A DNA stretch of 64,000 nucleotides from Aurantimicrobium minutum (lineage in GTDB: Bacteria; Actinomycetota; Actinomycetes; Actinomycetales; Microbacteriaceae). Shown here piece by piece: positions 37,088 to 48,000 of the stretch; the first letter of the stretch is position 1, and every line of letters begins with the position of its first letter. The notes below the pieces were generated by a model. It was not told the DNA's origin. It saw only the letters and a program-made list of their open reading frames with translations, and searched no databases. Position numbers and translations under genes: made by a program. Location of the stretch: contig NZ_JARXXU010000001.1 in NCBI RefSeq assembly GCF_029894165.1, positions 1,488,001 to 1,552,000 of the forward strand. Reading direction: 5' to 3'.

Positions 37088-39310
37088 CTATCGTGCGAAC
37101 CTGCGAAGACGCAGTGAATTGAGCACGACGAACAAACTCGAGAAGGCCATGGCGGCACCGGCGATCATGGGATTAAGAAATCCCAGCGCAGCTAAGGGGA
37201 TAGCGGCCACGTTGTAGGCGAAAGCCCAGAACAAATTCCCTCGAATAATGCCTAGTGTCCGGCGCGCCAGACGGAGCGAATCCACTGCGGCACTGAGAGT
37301 GCCCCGCACCAGCGTGATGTCACTAGCCGCAATCGCCACATCCGTGCCGGTTCCCATTGCAATACCCAGATCAGCCTGAGCTAAGGCTGCAGCATCGTTG
37401 ACGCCATCGCCCACCATGGCCACACGGTGACCTTGGGACTGGAGCTCCATAATCCGTGCAATCTTGTGTTCTGGACTGGCCCCTGCAATGACCTGCGTAA
37501 TACCAACCTGCGCAGCAATCGACTGTGCGGCGTCCTCATGATCTCCCGTCAGGAGAAACACATCTAGTCCCAGGGCGCGGAGTTCGGCGATGGCGAGCGC
37601 CGAGTCTGGCTTGATGGTGTCGGAAACTTCGACAACCATGCGGACATGATCATCCCACCCTGCCAATACTGCAGTTGCACCGTGTGACCGGGCAGTCTGC
37701 ACTGCGGCGTGCATTTCCACACCGAGAGAAAGTTTCTGGCTCTGCATCCACGCCTCGGTCCCCACGACAACATCGTGACCTGAGACAGTGCCTCGAACCC
37801 CCTGACCAGCGGTAGAGCGGAAATGCTCAACCTCGAGCAGGATGTCTTGATCTGCCTCTCTCACAATGGCTTTCGCAATGGGGTGTTCAGAACGTGCCTC
37901 CACGGCTGCAACGAGCGCACGAGCTGTCAATCCCTCTGTCCCCGGAGCCAGCGTTACCTCCGTCACACTCATGACCCCGGTCGTCACCGTGCCCGTTTTG
38001 TCCACCACGATGGTGTCGATGTGCGAGGAGCTTTCGATGGCGTCTGGTCCTGAAATGATGATCCCCAACTGCGCAGCGCGACCTGTACCCACCAACAGGG
38101 CAACAGGTGTGGCCAGACCGAGTGCACACGGACAGGCAATGACGAGAACGGCGATGGCGGCTGTGGCACCGGCAGCAGCTCCCCCACCCAGCAGTATCCA
38201 AGACACAAGTGTGACCAGCGCAATGCCCATCACGATGGGAACAAATACAGCAGAAATACGGTCTGCGAGCTTTTGCACGGCGGCTTTATGGAGCTGTGCG
38301 TCCTCCACAAGTGCAGCTAACTGTGCTATCCGAGTGTTACGGCCGACCTCGGTGGCTCGGATAGTGAGCTGCCCATCCAACACGATGGTTGATCCTGTGA
38401 CACGAGATTCAGCTGCCACGTCAACCGGCAGTGATTCACCTGTCAGGGCACTTTCATCAACCGCTGCTTCACCGTCGACAACAACTCCGTCCGTCGGGAT
38501 GATTTCTCCCGGGCGAACAATGAACACATCGCCGACTGCCAGGGACTGAGCTGGAATGAGCTCCTCAACCCCGGAAATAATGACGCGAGCCTCGGTGGCC
38601 TTCAGCTCTCCCAGTGCACGAAGGGCTGCCCCGGCACTGCGCTGGGAACGCTCTTCGAGATATCGGCCTAACAACAGAAAAGTGGTGACACCTGCAGCAG
38701 CTTCGAGATAAATGTTGTGGGTGGGGTCTGCTTGCCACGCGAACAGCTCCATGTCATGGCTCATCCCCACCATGCCTGCTTCACCAAAGAAAAGGGCATA
38801 AAGCGACCAGCTATACGCGGCGAAGGTTCCCATGGTGATGAGGGTGTCCATGGTGAGGGTGCCATGGCGAAGATTGATAAATGTCGCCCGGTGGAAGGGG
38901 TAGCCACACCAGAACACGACGGGCGTAGCCAGCAACAGAGAGATCCACTGCCAATAATCAAACTGCCACGCGGGAACCATAGCGAGAACAATGACGGGAA
39001 CGCTCAGCACGATTGAAATAATCAAACGCTCGAGCAGACTTACTTTTCCCGCGCCAGCGTGCTCATGTTCCGAAGCACTGTGTGCGCTCGTGGGCAAAAT
39101 GGCCGAGTAACCCAGCTTCGTCACTTGCGCAACCAGAGCTGTTTCGGGCGTATTTGATGGAAATTCGACCTTGGCGCTCTGTGTCGCCAGGTTCACAGAA
39201 GCGTGAACACCCGGGAGTTCATTGAGGCTTTTTTCAACTCGAGCCACACAGCTCGAACATGTCATTCCCTCAATACCGAGAACTATCGTCGAGGTGGTCT
39301 GATCTGCCAT
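37088..39310 (-). CDS. copA: CopA-type Cu(I)-exporting P1B ATPase
   Basis: 740 residues. One N-terminal metal-binding domain with GMTCSSC (Cys 18 and 21), eight membrane helices with the CPC motif in VIACPCALGLA (near 388), phosphorylation site DKTGT (near 433), SEHPIAKAI and GDGVNDAAALAQADLG. CPC plus a single HMA is the Cu+ class. It exports copper from the cytosol. ATG at 39310 with GAGGA upstream is chosen over a longer frame to 39373 that would run into a terminator hairpin. Confidence 0.92.
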   Translation of the reverse strand: MADQTTSTIVLGIEGMTCSSCVARVEKSLNELPGVHASVNLATQSAKVEFPSNTPETALVAQVTKLGYSAILPTSAHSASEHEHAGAGKVSLLERLIISIVLSVPVIVLAMVPAWQFDYWQWISLLLATPVVFWCGYPFHRATFINLRHGTLTMDTLITMGTFAAYSWSLYALFFGEAGMVGMSHDMELFAWQADPTHNIYLEAAAGVTTFLLLGRYLEERSQRSAGAALRALGELKATEARVIISGVEELIPAQSLAVGDVFIVRPGEIIPTDGVVVDGEAAVDESALTGESLPVDVAAESRVTGSTIVLDGQLTIRATEVGRNTRIAQLAALVEDAQLHKAAVQKLADRISAVFVPIVMGIALVTLVSWILLGGGAAAGATAAIAVLVIACPCALGLATPVALLVGTGRAAQLGIIISGPDAIESSSHIDTIVVDKTGTVTTGVMSVTEVTLAPGTEGLTARALVAAVEARSEHPIAKAIVREADQDILLEVEHFRSTAGQGVRGTVSGHDVVVGTEAWMQSQKLSLGVEMHAAVQTARSHGATAVLAGWDDHVRMVVEVSDTIKPDSALAIAELRALGLDVFLLTGDHEDAAQSIAAQVGITQVIAGASPEHKIARIMELQSQGHRVAMVGDGVNDAAALAQADLGIAMGTGTDVAIAASDITLVRGTLSAAVDSLRLARRTLGIIRGNLFWAFAYNVAAIPLAALGFLNPMIAGAAMAFSSLFVVLNSLRLRRFAR

Positions 39311-39375
39311 GGCATCCTCATTCCTGTGCTCGATATAACGCTCGTCAGCCCCAGAATATTCCTTTCCGCGCACAA

Positions 39376-39414: not shown

Positions 39415-39927
39415 TTAGTTCGTTGTGGACGGGGTTGGTGCTGTGGTGTTGTACCCCTCAGGAATGATGTCCTCACCGTTCTCATCGTGTTCGTGAGGAA
39501 CGTTACCGGGCATGGAGCCATCAGCTTCCAGGCCGCCCTTCATCGGACCACCTGGCTTGTGTTCACCCTTGGGGCCGTGCTGACCACCTTCGCGTGGACC
39601 GTCATCGTCCATGTCGCCCATGTGTGCTTGGGGGCCTGCCTGACCAACCTGTCCGACCTGACCCATGGGTGGAGGGCCGGAATGGGCTACGGCGTTCGCG
39701 GTTGCAACACCGGCGCCAAAAATACCGGCGAGCAATGCCACACCGGCGGCGGAGATGCCAATGATGGCTCCAGTGCCGAGGCTGCGCTTGCGAGCGGAAG
39801 CAATCGGGGTTACAGCTGCGTCGGCTTCAGTTGCGGCAGCTTCTGTCTCCGGAGTTGGGGTGTACTCAGCAGGAGCCTGAGTTGCCTCTGCGTTGTCGAG
39901 GTTCTCGGTGTTGTCGTCTTTAGGCAT
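39415..39927 (-). CDS. Single-pass membrane protein with Gly/His/Asp-rich exterior
   Basis: 170 residues. The acidic N-terminal arm is about 50 residues, then a basic RKR and one helix (IIGISAAGVALLAGIFGAGV), then an exterior segment rich in Gly, Pro, Met, His and Asp: GPPPMGQVGQVGQAG, HMGDMDDDGP and PHEHDENGED. Met/His/Asp content and the neighbouring copA suggest copper or other metal binding, but this is inference; no family is recognised. The start is the ATG at 39927, placed 7 bases after AGGAGG. Confidence 0.7.
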   Translation of the reverse strand: MPKDDNTENLDNAEATQAPAEYTPTPETEAAATEADAAVTPIASARKRSLGTGAIIGISAAGVALLAGIFGAGVATANAVAHSGPPPMGQVGQVGQAGPQAHMGDMDDDGPREGGQHGPKGEHKPGGPMKGGLEADGSMPGNVPHEHDENGEDIIPEGYNTTAPTPSTTN

Positions 39928-40036
39928 CTGCATGCCTCCTAACTTTCGTCGATTCTGTGGTGAGGTTGGGATCCTCCGACCGTCTGGCCGATAACTCCAC
40001 AATGCAGAGGGTTCCTATGAGGACCCTATGAACGAC

Positions 40037-41545
40037 TTAAGAAAGAGCAGAGAGTTTTGCGTGGATTTTTCGTTCAAGAAAACGTTGTTCAGCAGTGGCC
40101 ACAATCTTGTTAGCCATGCCGTTGAAGATAATTCCATGGGCCGGCAGGATCGACAGCCAATACAAGCGCCCACCCAAACCTCGAGGGAAGAAAATTGCGC
40201 GCTGAGTGTAGTGAGAAGTTCCGTCCGGGAGAGCAGTTGCCGTGAGCTCCAGCCAGGCAAGCCCCGGAACTTTCATCTCTGCACGCAACCTCAAGAAGCT
40301 TCCGTGATCGATGCGTTCGACCCGCCACCAGTCCACGGCCTCCCCCACACGCAAATGAACGGGATTGATCCGGCCTCGGCGAAGCCCCACCCCTCCGACT
40401 AGCTTGTCGGCGAATCCTCGAGCAGCCCAGGCAATGGGGAGGGAATACCAGCCGTTTTCTCCACCGATTCCTTCAATCAAGGCCCATAAATCTTCAACGG
40501 GTGCGTCACAGTCCCGCTGTTTGAGGTCGATATAGACCCGGTGCCCAGCCCACTCAGGGTCGCTCGGCAGAGGGTCGCTGGGAGCACCCTCCACGCTCGC
40601 GTTTTGCCAACTGGTTTCAATATCTCCCTCTTTCATCTTGCCCAGGGCAAGATGCACAGACCGGCGATAGGTCAACAAGCCCTCTGCGGGCGGGGGGATA
40701 AGGGAATCCACATCATGTTCGTTCATGATGCAGTCGTGTTGCAACGACGCAATGATGGGCACCGCAAGTGTCCGCGGGATGGGGGTGACCAGGTTCACCC
40801 ACTGACTGGCCAGATAGGGAGTCAGCACGGGAAGTTTGAGAATAGCCCGTTCTTTCATGCCGGCCTCGACCGCGTAGCCATTCATCATTTCCGAATACTT
40901 CAGAACTTCAGGCCCGCCAATATCGATGGTGCGATTGACAGTGGGCGGCAGATCTGCCGCTTTAATGAGGTAATACATCACGTCGCGCACGGCAATGGGT
41001 TGAATCAGATTGCCCACCCACTTAGGGGCCGTCATGACCGGGAGAACATCGGTGAGGTGACGAATCATTTCAAAACTTGTTGAACCTGAACCAATGATCA
41101 CCCCAGCTTGTAACGCCGCGGTGGGAACCCCCGAGTCCAAAAGAATCTGTCCCACCTCAGCACGTGAGCGCAGATGTTTGGAAAGTTCACCCTGTGATGG
41201 GTGAAGACCACCGAGATAGACAATGCGAGAAACACCTGCTGCTTTCGCCGACTCCGCCACGTGATGTGCACCCTGGAGTTCTTTACTTTCAAAGTCACCC
41301 TTTTGCCCCATGGCATGCACGAGGTAGTAGAGCACGTCGATTTTGTGGCAGGCACGTTCCACGGCCGCAGCATCGAGTAGGTCGCCCTCGTGAATTTCAA
41401 CCTGTGCTCGCCAGGGGACATCTTTGAGCTTTTCTGCATTGCGCACGAGGACGCGGACGGTAAATCCAGCCTCGAGAAGACGAGGCACAAGACGTCCACC
41501 GATATAGCCCGTAGCTCCGGTGACAAGTGCTCGTTTTAGCGCCAT
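40037..41545 (-). CDS. NAD(P)-binding SDR with C-terminal DUF2867
   Basis: 502 residues. N-terminal Rossmann domain with GATGYIGGRLVPRLL (near 9) and YYLVHAMGQKG, of the atypical NDUFA9-like SDR type; the last 170 residues form a DUF2867 START-like domain (from RVYIDLKQRDCDAP). Function unknown; likely a quinone or isoprenoid-related reductase. ATG at 41545, 6 nt after TAGAGT, so a leaderless mRNA is likely. Confidence 0.82.
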   Translation of the reverse strand: MALKRALVTGATGYIGGRLVPRLLEAGFTVRVLVRNAEKLKDVPWRAQVEIHEGDLLDAAAVERACHKIDVLYYLVHAMGQKGDFESKELQGAHHVAESAKAAGVSRIVYLGGLHPSQGELSKHLRSRAEVGQILLDSGVPTAALQAGVIIGSGSTSFEMIRHLTDVLPVMTAPKWVGNLIQPIAVRDVMYYLIKAADLPPTVNRTIDIGGPEVLKYSEMMNGYAVEAGMKERAILKLPVLTPYLASQWVNLVTPIPRTLAVPIIASLQHDCIMNEHDVDSLIPPPAEGLLTYRRSVHLALGKMKEGDIETSWQNASVEGAPSDPLPSDPEWAGHRVYIDLKQRDCDAPVEDLWALIEGIGGENGWYSLPIAWAARGFADKLVGGVGLRRGRINPVHLRVGEAVDWWRVERIDHGSFLRLRAEMKVPGLAWLELTATALPDGTSHYTQRAIFFPRGLGGRLYWLSILPAHGIIFNGMANKIVATAEQRFLERKIHAKLSALS

Positions 41546-41551
41546 TCTCAG

Positions 41552-41557
41552 ACTCTA
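41552..41557 (-). promoter_or_regulatory. Candidate -10 box of a leaderless transcript (SDR gene)
   Basis: TAGAGT on the minus strand ends 6 nt before the ATG at 41545. Confidence 0.5.
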
Positions 41558-41594
41558 CGCCCTGCGCTTGATACCTTCTATGCAGGGAGGAAAA

Positions 41595-42581
41595 ATGCCT
41601 GCGAAAAATCGCATCTGGCTCGTCGGCACCTTTGCTGTGCTCATCCTCTTGGTTATCCTCGCCATTGGCTCCGCGGTCAATGCTGTGAAGTCGATGCAAA
41701 CCGTGACGGCCGTGGAATCTCTCGAGAAAGCCCTCCGTGGCACGGAAGCTCCGATAGATATTGCCGTTCCCACAGAAACAGCGTCCGCGGCGCCCTCTAC
41801 TGTGCCTGCAGACACAACATCTCACTCGGTGAGTGCGTTCTATGCTCTGCTGTCTGAGCTGCCCACGGATGATGCCCTTACGTCACATCCTGGCTATAAC
41901 CGGGATTATTTCAACGCGTGGATTGATGCAGACAGCGATGGGTGCAACACCCGTGCCGAGGTACTCATGATGGAGTCGAATGTCGCGGTGAGTACTCGGG
42001 GAACCTGCACCGTGACCACCGGGTCCTGGTACTCGGCGTATGACGGCTCGAGTACGACGGAGGCAAGTGGCCTAGATATTGACCACTTTGTCCCCCTCAA
42101 TGAGGCGTGGGTTTCCGGAGCTGACACCTGGGACGCCGCCACCCGAGTGCAGTTCGGCAACGACCTCGGTTATGACTATTCCCTCCTTGCGGTGAGTGCG
42201 TCATCGAACCGGTCGAAAAGCGATCAAGATCCGGCAGAGTGGATGCCCGCACAACGGGATTATTACTGCGACTATGTCGCCACGTGGATCTCTGTGAAAT
42301 GGCGTTGGGGTCTCAGCGTGGATTCTCTGGAACGGCTTGCGTTGAACTCCGTGTTGGAACAATGTTCTGGCTTCGCGATTGACCTGCCAGAAAAAGCGAA
42401 TGTGGTCACCGGCGCCCCCTCAGCCGAGGAACCAGTTCCCCCCTCCGACGGGGTTCTCGATCCGAATTACGGAACATGCTCTATCGCCCAAGCCAATGGT
42501 GCCGGTCCCTACCGTCAGGGGGTTGACCCTGAATATGACTGGTATCGCGACCGCGACAAAGACGGGGTTGTCTGCGAGTAG
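41595..42581 (+). CDS. Membrane-anchored HNH nuclease (DUF1524) with Excalibur domain
   Basis: 328 residues. One N-terminal helix (WLVGTFAVLILLVILAIGSA) anchors the protein, then a linker, then a DUF1524-type HNH endonuclease domain with DHFVPLNEAW (near 162), FGNDLGYDYSLLAVSA and NRSKSDQDPAEW; the C-terminal 40 residues form an Excalibur calcium-binding domain (YRDRDKDGVVCE). It is expected to act outside the cell, possibly to degrade DNA for nutrients. ATG at 41595 follows GGGAGGAAAA; a GTG/ATG further upstream is rejected. Confidence 0.85.
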   Translation: MPAKNRIWLVGTFAVLILLVILAIGSAVNAVKSMQTVTAVESLEKALRGTEAPIDIAVPTETASAAPSTVPADTTSHSVSAFYALLSELPTDDALTSHPGYNRDYFNAWIDADSDGCNTRAEVLMMESNVAVSTRGTCTVTTGSWYSAYDGSSTTEASGLDIDHFVPLNEAWVSGADTWDAATRVQFGNDLGYDYSLLAVSASSNRSKSDQDPAEWMPAQRDYYCDYVATWISVKWRWGLSVDSLERLALNSVLEQCSGFAIDLPEKANVVTGAPSAEEPVPPSDGVLDPNYGTCSIAQANGAGPYRQGVDPEYDWYRDRDKDGVVCE

Positions 42582-42582
42582 A

Positions 42583-42634
42583 CACACAGCAAGGGCTCGA
42601 CTTCTCACGAAGTCGAGCCCTTGTGCGCTGTGTG
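42583..42634. terminator. Strong bidirectional hairpin between the nuclease and Cys-rich peptide genes
   Basis: Inner arms CAAGGGCTCGACTTC and GAAGTCGAGCCCTTG are a perfect 15 bp stem with loop TCAC; outer arms CACACAGC and GCTGTGTG extend it after a small bulge. It lies between converging stop codons at 42581 and 42640. Confidence 0.75.
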
Positions 42635-42639
42635 GATGC

Positions 42640-42738
42640 TTACTTGCCGCCGCAGCACGCGCCGCCGCAGCAGCCGCCCTCTTCGCCGCCACCAACGGTT
42701 GCGGAAGGGGTCTCAAGCTTGATGTTCGCGGTTGCCAT
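42640..42738 (-). CDS. 32-residue Cys/Gly-rich peptide
   Basis: ATG at 42738 to TAA at 42642-42640 on the minus strand. Strong AAAGGAG six bases upstream, so it is likely translated. The N-terminal half begins MATANIKLETPS (leader-like or structured) and passes through Gly/Glu into GGCCGGACCGGK, with four Cys as two CC pairs. The pattern would suit metal binding, or a peptide that is modified. No maturation enzyme lies next to it. The frame is shorter than gene-callers usually report. It ends at a strong terminator hairpin and lies 122 bp downstream of the SMR gene. Confidence 0.75.
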   Translation of the reverse strand: MATANIKLETPSATVGGGEEGGCCGGACCGGK

Positions 42739-42860
42739 GTGTTCTCCTTTGATTAAGGGTGATTGTCACAGCGAGGCCGGGCAATCGAGGTCTGTAATAA
42801 GTGTGCGCTTGTTTGCTCTTCCCGTCAACGCAGCAGAGGGGCATGTCGCCCACAGCGTAA

Positions 42861-43193
42861 CTAGTTGTGCGAGCTGCCCATCTCCAACATCACGACACCG
42901 ATAATGATGAGAGCGATACCCACAAAGCCCCACACGTTGAGGGTTTCTTTGAACAGGAAGATACCTAAGATAGCCACCAGCGCCGTGCCGGCGCCTGCCC
43001 AAATACCGTAGGCGACACCCATGCTGAGACCTTTGGACAGGCCCAACCCCAAGGAGGCAAACGCTGTGAGGTAGCCGACAAACACAAAGATCGTGGGGAC
43101 CACTTTGGTAAAGCCCTCACTCATTTTGAGCGCCAGGGTTCCCACCACTTCAGCAATGATGGCAAGGGCGAGAAGTAAATATGCAACAACCAT
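42861..43193 (-). CDS. SMR-family small multidrug efflux protein
   Basis: 110 residues, four membrane helices. Glu in LALAIIAEVVGTLALK (residue 14-like, helix 1) is the proton/drug site, and VAYGIWAGAGTALVAILG is the SMR signature. Exports cationic drugs or guanidinium-like ions by proton antiport. ATG at 43193 follows TAAAGT by 6 nt, a leaderless arrangement. Confidence 0.88.
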   Translation of the reverse strand: MVVAYLLLALAIIAEVVGTLALKMSEGFTKVVPTIFVFVGYLTAFASLGLGLSKGLSMGVAYGIWAGAGTALVAILGIFLFKETLNVWGFVGIALIIIGVVMLEMGSSHN

Positions 43194-45040: not shown

Positions 45041-45114
45041 CGCGGGGTGGAGCAGCTCGGTAGCTCGCTGGGCTCATAACCCAGAGGTCGCAGGTTCAAA
45101 TCCTGTCCCCGCAA
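45041..45114 (+). tRNA. Initiator tRNA-fMet (CAT)
   Basis: 74 nt that folds with all arms: acceptor CGCGGGG/CCCCGCA, anticodon stem CTGGG/CCCAG around CTCATAA, T arm GCAGG-TTCAAAT-CCTGT. C1 faces A72 as a mismatch and the anticodon stem has three G:C pairs, the marks of initiator tRNA. The CCA is not encoded. TAAAGT at 45024-45029 may be its -10 box. Confidence 0.95.
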
Positions 45115-47629: not shown

Positions 47630-48000
47630 TGGTGGAGATGGGGGGAATTGAACCCCCGTCCACTGCTGAAATTGTGAGTCTTCTACGGGTGTAGCTGATT
47701 AGAGGCGTTCTACTTGGCTCCGACCTTTGTTACCAGCATCTAAGTCGACAAGCCCAGTCTGAGTTAAAGTCCCGCAGTGCCCTCAGGCATAACACTGCAG
47801 CAAGTTTCCTAAGATGATGCCAGGACACGGGTCGGAAACACTCCCGGTCTGACAGACTTCAGGCTCGCTTAGGCAGCGAGGGCGAAGTCGGCGCGGTTAG
47901 ATTTTGCACCTATTGTTTGCAGAGGTCGTTAACGAGATATCCCTGCATCCTCGACCCGCTTCTCTCTCGCTCGCAGGCAATGTCGAATCCGATCATCCCC
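47630..48000 (-). ncRNA. ssrA: tmRNA (transfer-messenger RNA)
   Basis: 371 nt on the minus strand. The 5' end GGGGATGATCGGATTCGAC and the 3' end CATCTCCACCA form the tRNA-like acceptor (seven pairs, one G:U), with a T arm GGGGGTTCAATTCCCCC. The tag frame is 47869-47907 (minus), encoding AKSNRADFALAA and stop TAA. It rescues stalled ribosomes and marks nascent proteins for proteolysis. CCA is encoded. It lies 141 bp downstream of smpB, its protein partner. Confidence 0.95.

Follow-up and report, generated by a model that had tools for sequence, protein, structure and literature searches.

A short gene encoding a four-cysteine peptide in the freshwater bacterium Aurantimicrobium minutum is real, easily overlooked and conserved in relatives that also have small genomes, and it is under purifying selection. 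Because it is conserved and usually lies near a copper-export gene, its product is a candidate for a very small metal-binding protein. On the sequence evidence we give roughly even odds (about 0.5) to the peptide acting in the cytosol as a minimal buffer whose thiols take up Cu(I) or Zn(II), with copper as the first choice. Should this hold, few metal-buffering proteins with a gene of their own would be as small, and this one is kept in reduced genomes. The window referred to below is the whole stretch of DNA that was analysed, 64,000 nucleotides in length; its features are collected in Table 1.

Table 1. Features of the peptide locus and its surroundings, with positions counted from the first base of the window
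Feature	Position	Strand	Remarks
CopA, copper-translocating P-type ATPase	37088..39373	-	HMA domain, CPC motif; TIGR01511 511.6 bits, cut-off 397
Small Met/His/Gly-rich protein	39415..39933	-	one apparent membrane helix (by eye); no family match
CATAG-type repeat region	39934-40050		homologues in L056, L057, L058, L060, L061 and L063
NmrA/NAD-binding + DUF2867 protein	40037..41545	-	anchor of the neighbourhood
Nuclease-like gene	41520..42581	+	GmrSD_C and Excalibur (calcium-binding); convergent with the peptide gene
Perfect 15-bp inverted repeat	42590..42623	.	arms 42590-42604 and 42609-42623, loop of 4, no T-run
Peptide gene	42640..42738	-	N-terminal IKLExPxA conserved, Gly-rich linker, C-terminal GGCCGGACCGGK
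Shine-Dalgarno AAAGGAG	42744..42750	-	five bases (AACAC) before the ATG
Promoter-like element TTGACG-N17-CACACT	42800..42828	-	conserved upstream of the peptide gene
SMR-family efflux protein	42861..43193	-	Multi_Drug_Res, E 4e-24
tRNA	45041-45114	+	Rfam
tmRNA	47630-48000	-	Rfam

Conservation of the peptide gene

The open reading frames of the window include a gene of 32 codons, stop included, that runs from 42738 to 42640 and so lies on the minus strand, a point missing from the preliminary reading described next. Its translation is MATANIKLETPSATVGGGEEGGCCGGACCGGK, followed by the stop codon TAA, with four cysteines arranged as two CC pairs, and the gene is present in a single copy in its own genome. 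A preliminary sequence-only reading had described a 32-codon frame ending in a Cys/Gly-rich peptide; frame, length and sequence were as it had stated, and the frame proved to be conserved. The window contains 261 ORFs of 25-60 aa that start with ATG, of which one has at least four cysteines among its last 12 residues, and 20 simulated windows (first-order Markov) contained a mean of 0.4 such ORFs each. Since about 0.4 comparable ORFs are expected per simulated window, the cysteine content alone is not significant; the gene is considered real because it is conserved across genomes of the family, composition not being enough.

Matches at E ≤ 1.3e-6 were obtained in 11 of 150 family genomes, belonging to five genera. 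A profile search of 398 family genomes, representing 85 genera, detected the peptide in 21 genomes from five genera; its own genome is counted in both cases. At least three loci were confirmed in a scan of genome contigs. Within Aurantimicrobium the peptide was found in all eight genomes of the genus, again with its own included. A weak family match (L012) sits inside what we take to be a recF-like gene.

The alignments comprise 19 copies, namely those of the 21 carriers minus L039 (genome G489) and L042 (G491). The four cysteines are kept in 19/19 copies, with a peptide length of 31-33 aa, and the I-K-L-E, P and A positions of the N-terminal part are as invariant as the cysteines. The two CC pairs of the sequence-only reading are found in the gene's own copy; in the alignment 11 copies keep CC as the second pair, and the other 8 have CGC there. 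Over 164 of 171 pairs of copies, dN/dS has a median of 0.19. Cysteine codons exchange synonymously between TGC and TGT. The earlier reading had proposed to search Microbacteriaceae genomes for the peptide and to analyse synonymous sites, and both bore it out; lack of a conserved frame, or changes that break the cysteine pairs and the ribosome site, which it had named as counter-evidence, were not encountered, save for the split second pair.

No strong match was seen beyond the five genera in either 347 genomes of the order or 396 genomes of the phylum. The order-level search returned five non-self matches, only at E 0.01-0.05, and these were treated as chance. The phylum-level profile search also returned five non-self matches (E ≤ 0.01), three of which are tails of FmdB-type proteins, considered further below, while two lie in frames overlapping larger genes. 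A mobile origin was considered and rejected: plasmids and phages gave no match, and viral contigs no confirmed one. Our literature searches found no paper on this peptide, and a term search of the main text of an RNA-seq paper on this group (PMC8591293) found copper and cysteine nowhere mentioned.

Expression signals

The ribosome site of the sequence-only reading stands, its spacing to the ATG being five bases rather than the six given there; its AGG is present in 19/19 aligned copies. Further upstream, the promoter-like GCGCACACT is matched exactly in 17/19 copies. The TTG is spaced by 17 bases in 16 copies and by 18 in the other 3, and the end of the CACACT-type hexamer lies 47-74 bases from the ATG. 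By its sequence this element resembles a promoter of the sigma-70 type whose -10 is unusual; a consensus promoter scan of the window did not call it. The SMR efflux gene had been correctly named as a flank, and can now be placed 122 bp upstream on the same minus strand. The genes flanking the peptide differ between genera, while the promoter-like element and the ribosome site stay, and because of this variation the peptide gene is probably its own transcription unit.

What had been read as a strong terminator beside the gene is an inverted repeat that separates the peptide gene from the nuclease-like gene running towards it. No T-run accompanies the repeat, and a consensus scan found no terminator at 42590-42623. 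From its sequence it may possibly serve as a two-way transcript end. The start of the nuclease-like ORF was set mechanically, and the true start may be further in. Folding predictions place hairpins in the 5' leaders, with z-scores from -0.02 to -2.37 in 12 copies, too weak to claim a conserved RNA structure, and the peptide locus gave no Rfam match at gathering scores.

Cys-rich attenuator upstream ORFs have been described in mycobacteria, and a short Cys-rich ORF with a promoter-like element of its own could similarly be a regulatory uORF, its cysteine codons sensing cysteine supply on behalf of a downstream gene. The arrangement in the two g83 genomes leaves room for this: the nuclease-like gene is missing between the peptide and NmrA, and NmrA follows the peptide on the same strand. 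Such an attenuator would, however, go with a conserved downstream gene on the same strand, and the genes found there are convergent or differ; the neighbour that follows in the window points towards the peptide gene, and between genera the downstream gene varies. Conservation also extends to residues other than cysteine. We therefore regard a uORF function as highly improbable.

The copper-ATPase neighbourhood

In the carriers the peptide gene belongs to a block in which it is followed by, often, the nuclease-like gene, then the NmrA/DUF2867 gene, the Met/His/Gly-rich protein and a P-type ATPase bearing an HMA domain and a CPC motif; the middle genes of the block were tested for family membership in some loci and judged elsewhere from ORF size and place. 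A copper-type P-ATPase starts 2.4-3.5 kb from the peptide, beyond NmrA/DUF2867, in 15 of the 17 carriers that could be assessed. It was recognised by Pfam in the window and in L057, L058, L059, L061 and L063, and by NCBIfam in nine loci (L056, L064, L107, L110 and L142-L146), and the CPC motif was seen in all 14 ATPase loci besides the window. Among the matches listed, the copper model TIGR01511 was reached in seven of the nine NCBIfam loci, and L107 and L110 were over the cut-off only of the broader heavy-metal model. In the four remaining carriers of the 21 (G146, G094, G498 and G587) the contigs end too early for the presence of CopA to be judged.

The two assessable exceptions are G117 and G513 (L060 and L106), in which the peptide is present with neither an HMA nor a CPC motif nearby. 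At both loci the interval between the Met/His-type ORF and an SNF2-sized ORF holds no copper-ATPase motif. The missing CopA looks like a local loss. Copper-related motifs also occur on the other side of the peptide: in G146 an HMA protein (CopZ-like) is found there together with an SRAP-like gene, and G012 and G622 have an HMA motif on the side opposite CopA.

A different picture was obtained from genomes that do not carry the peptide. An NmrA homologue at E ≤ 1e-40 is present in 12 of 22 such genomes, and at none of the 11 assessable loci does the surrounding sequence, out to about 1.5 kb, contain an HMA motif or a CPC motif; this count omits L100, which lies at a contig edge, and the match in L101 is distant and partial. 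In carrier loci (n=9), an HMA motif lies less than 0.9 kb from the end of NmrA. No peptide-like frame was seen at the non-carrier NmrA loci, for which the downstream ORFs of five and the upstream ORFs of five were inspected. The peptide and the CopA block thus occur together at this site, in part through common ancestry; the linkage may in part reflect vertical inheritance within one clade.

The Met/His/Gly-rich protein was aligned in six loci and adjoins CopA in five of them, CopA being missing in L060. It is possibly a copper-binding protein itself.

Regulation of the peptide and of CopA

Tandem CATAG-type repeats, 11 bp apart, precede the Met/His-CopA genes in 7/7 aligned loci and resemble a site where a response regulator would bind to control the copper genes. 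The pair was found upstream of the peptide in 0/19 copies, with a lone CATAG in L044, and its absence leaves co-regulation of the peptide and copA unsupported. A copper operator common to both was sought in the upstream regions and none was found; the promoter of the peptide is separate from that of the CopA operon. The genome has one CsoR-family gene (L086, near 1,118,650), which is not by copA and directly follows a gene resembling, by eye, a CoA-disulfide reductase/rhodanese. This location suggests persulfide rather than copper sensing, and the protein may be a persulfide sensor. With the CATAG pair missing upstream and CsoR away from copA, nothing links expression of the peptide to copper.

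A proposed minimal thiol metal buffer and its alternatives

The gene neighbourhood suggests that the peptide may bind metal ions through its thiolates. The product would be a free peptide of 31-33 residues, probably cytosolic, expressed from its own promoter, whose flexible Gly-rich C-terminus would present the four invariant cysteines as CCGGxC[G]C. These could bind a soft metal ion, Cu(I) most likely and Zn(II) as second choice, and so provide a metallothionein-like buffer that holds the metal before CopA exports it, presumably by hand-over; the IKLExPxA segment perhaps docks to a partner. A metal-buffer role had been suggested in the sequence-only reading. It is the best-supported explanation, strengthened by the copper-ATPase neighbourhood, which that reading had not reported.

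By its properties the peptide resembles a metallothionein, being small and Cys-rich with invariant cysteines (31-33 aa, four in 19/19 copies). By sequence it joined none of the known metallothionein families, as judged from family models and solved sequences, which for so short a query is weak evidence: no family was matched in Pfam (E up to 0.1) or NCBIfam (E up to 1) and no sequence in the PDB (E up to 10), short sequences scoring poorly in each. Bacterial metallothioneins of the SmtA/BmtA type are small thiol-rich metal-buffering proteins; the peptide differs from them in lacking a family match, and SmtA carries more cysteines. The peptide can also be compared with MymT, the copper metallothionein of M. 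tuberculosis, likewise a small Cys-rich actinobacterial protein linked to copper. MymT came to light as a short ORF that annotation had missed, has a mass of 4.9 kDa and has a predicted capacity of up to six Cu(I) (PMC7558416). The comparison is one of descriptions, and for the peptide, with four cysteines in 31-33 residues, copper binding is deduced from context.

Several observations speak against the buffer. G117 and G513 keep the peptide without CopA nearby, co-regulation with copA is unsupported, four cysteines are few for a metallothionein, and no family model or solved-structure sequence was matched. Moreover, IKLExPxA is as invariant as the cysteines, and a pure thiol buffer has no need of it.

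The invariant N-terminal motif and the Gly/Cys-rich end could instead be the leader and core of a ribosomally synthesised, modified peptide, with IKLExPxA as leader, GGCCGGxC(G)CGGK as core and the enzyme encoded elsewhere, much as the sequence-only reading had it in proposing modification by a distant enzyme. Bufferins, which are MNIO-modified RiPPs, chelate excess copper (PMC12452194), and in contrast to them no MNIO gene was found for the peptide: the MNIO family PF05114 occurred in 0/28 genomes. These 28 include all 21 carriers, several of which are only 82-90% complete. YcaO was found in a single one of the 28, a non-carrier, and hence in 0/21 carriers. Radical-SAM proteins were counted in 28/28 genomes and identified in the peptide's own genome, where the four are the housekeeping enzymes RlmN, HemW, LipA and MiaB. 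For the classes covered (MNIO, YcaO and the radical-SAM proteins of its own genome), no cognate enzyme was found. Nor is a Ser or Thr kept at any position in all 19 copies, as a lanthipeptide would have it, which makes rings from dehydrated residues unlikely. The proposal of a modified peptide finds little support in these results, and we consider it quite improbable.

The FmdB matches bring in a further explanation, in which the peptide is a free-standing thiol/redox module resembling the Cys tail that certain zinc-ribbon proteins of the FmdB type carry; its thiols would respond to oxidation or metal, and its N-terminal segment would act on protein quality control or on another partner. Ruc belongs to the FmdB group. 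This protein (Rv0991c) is a chaperone under redox control, in which a zinc ribbon is joined to a tail that is variable and disordered (PMC7448276). The three FmdB-type proteins among the five non-self phylum matches end in GGGGGCCGGSCCS, GDGGCCGGACGCAR and TGGGCCGGACGCGR, with Zn_ribbon_8 matches in the same frames directly before the Cys tails, and the invariant N-terminal motif of the peptide suggests a partner. Some FmdB-type proteins therefore share its GGCCGG[AS]C(G)C module; they differ in that the peptide has no zinc ribbon and its N-terminal IKLExPxA is unrelated. The N-terminal CxxC...CxxC ribbon that marks FmdB and Ruc is absent from the peptide, which has no cysteine in its N-terminal half and no match in Pfam.

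A search for FmdB-type proteins in 16 carriers gave matches in seven, two of them below the cut-off. Those examined, from G000, G083 and G059 (the second match in the last), have no Cys tail, so that no origin of the peptide by splitting is seen in the clade. The FmdB-type proteins of three non-carriers are also without the tail. Short Gly/Cys tails can be convergent, and a thiol/redox module would leave the copper neighbourhood unexplained. On balance we find this reading unlikely.

Elements of the metal buffer and of the FmdB likeness can be combined, and we put this forward tentatively, as a possibility on which we would not insist: the peptide may represent a new ultra-short Cu(I)-thiolate family (IKLExPxA plus GGCCGG[AS]C(G)C), kept by a single group of Microbacteriaceae with small genomes and acting together with CopA, whose thiol module also occurs on FmdB-type proteins of some other Actinomycetota. 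If that were so, the FmdB-type Cys tail would be an unrecognised copper/redox element. Gene-inactivation tools have been published for this genus (PMC11577799). The peptide in any case draws attention to a Cys module that also ends some FmdB-type proteins; those with GGCCGG[AS]C(G)C-like tails are located at L051:1312-1554, L054:1492-1704 and L055:1336-1542.
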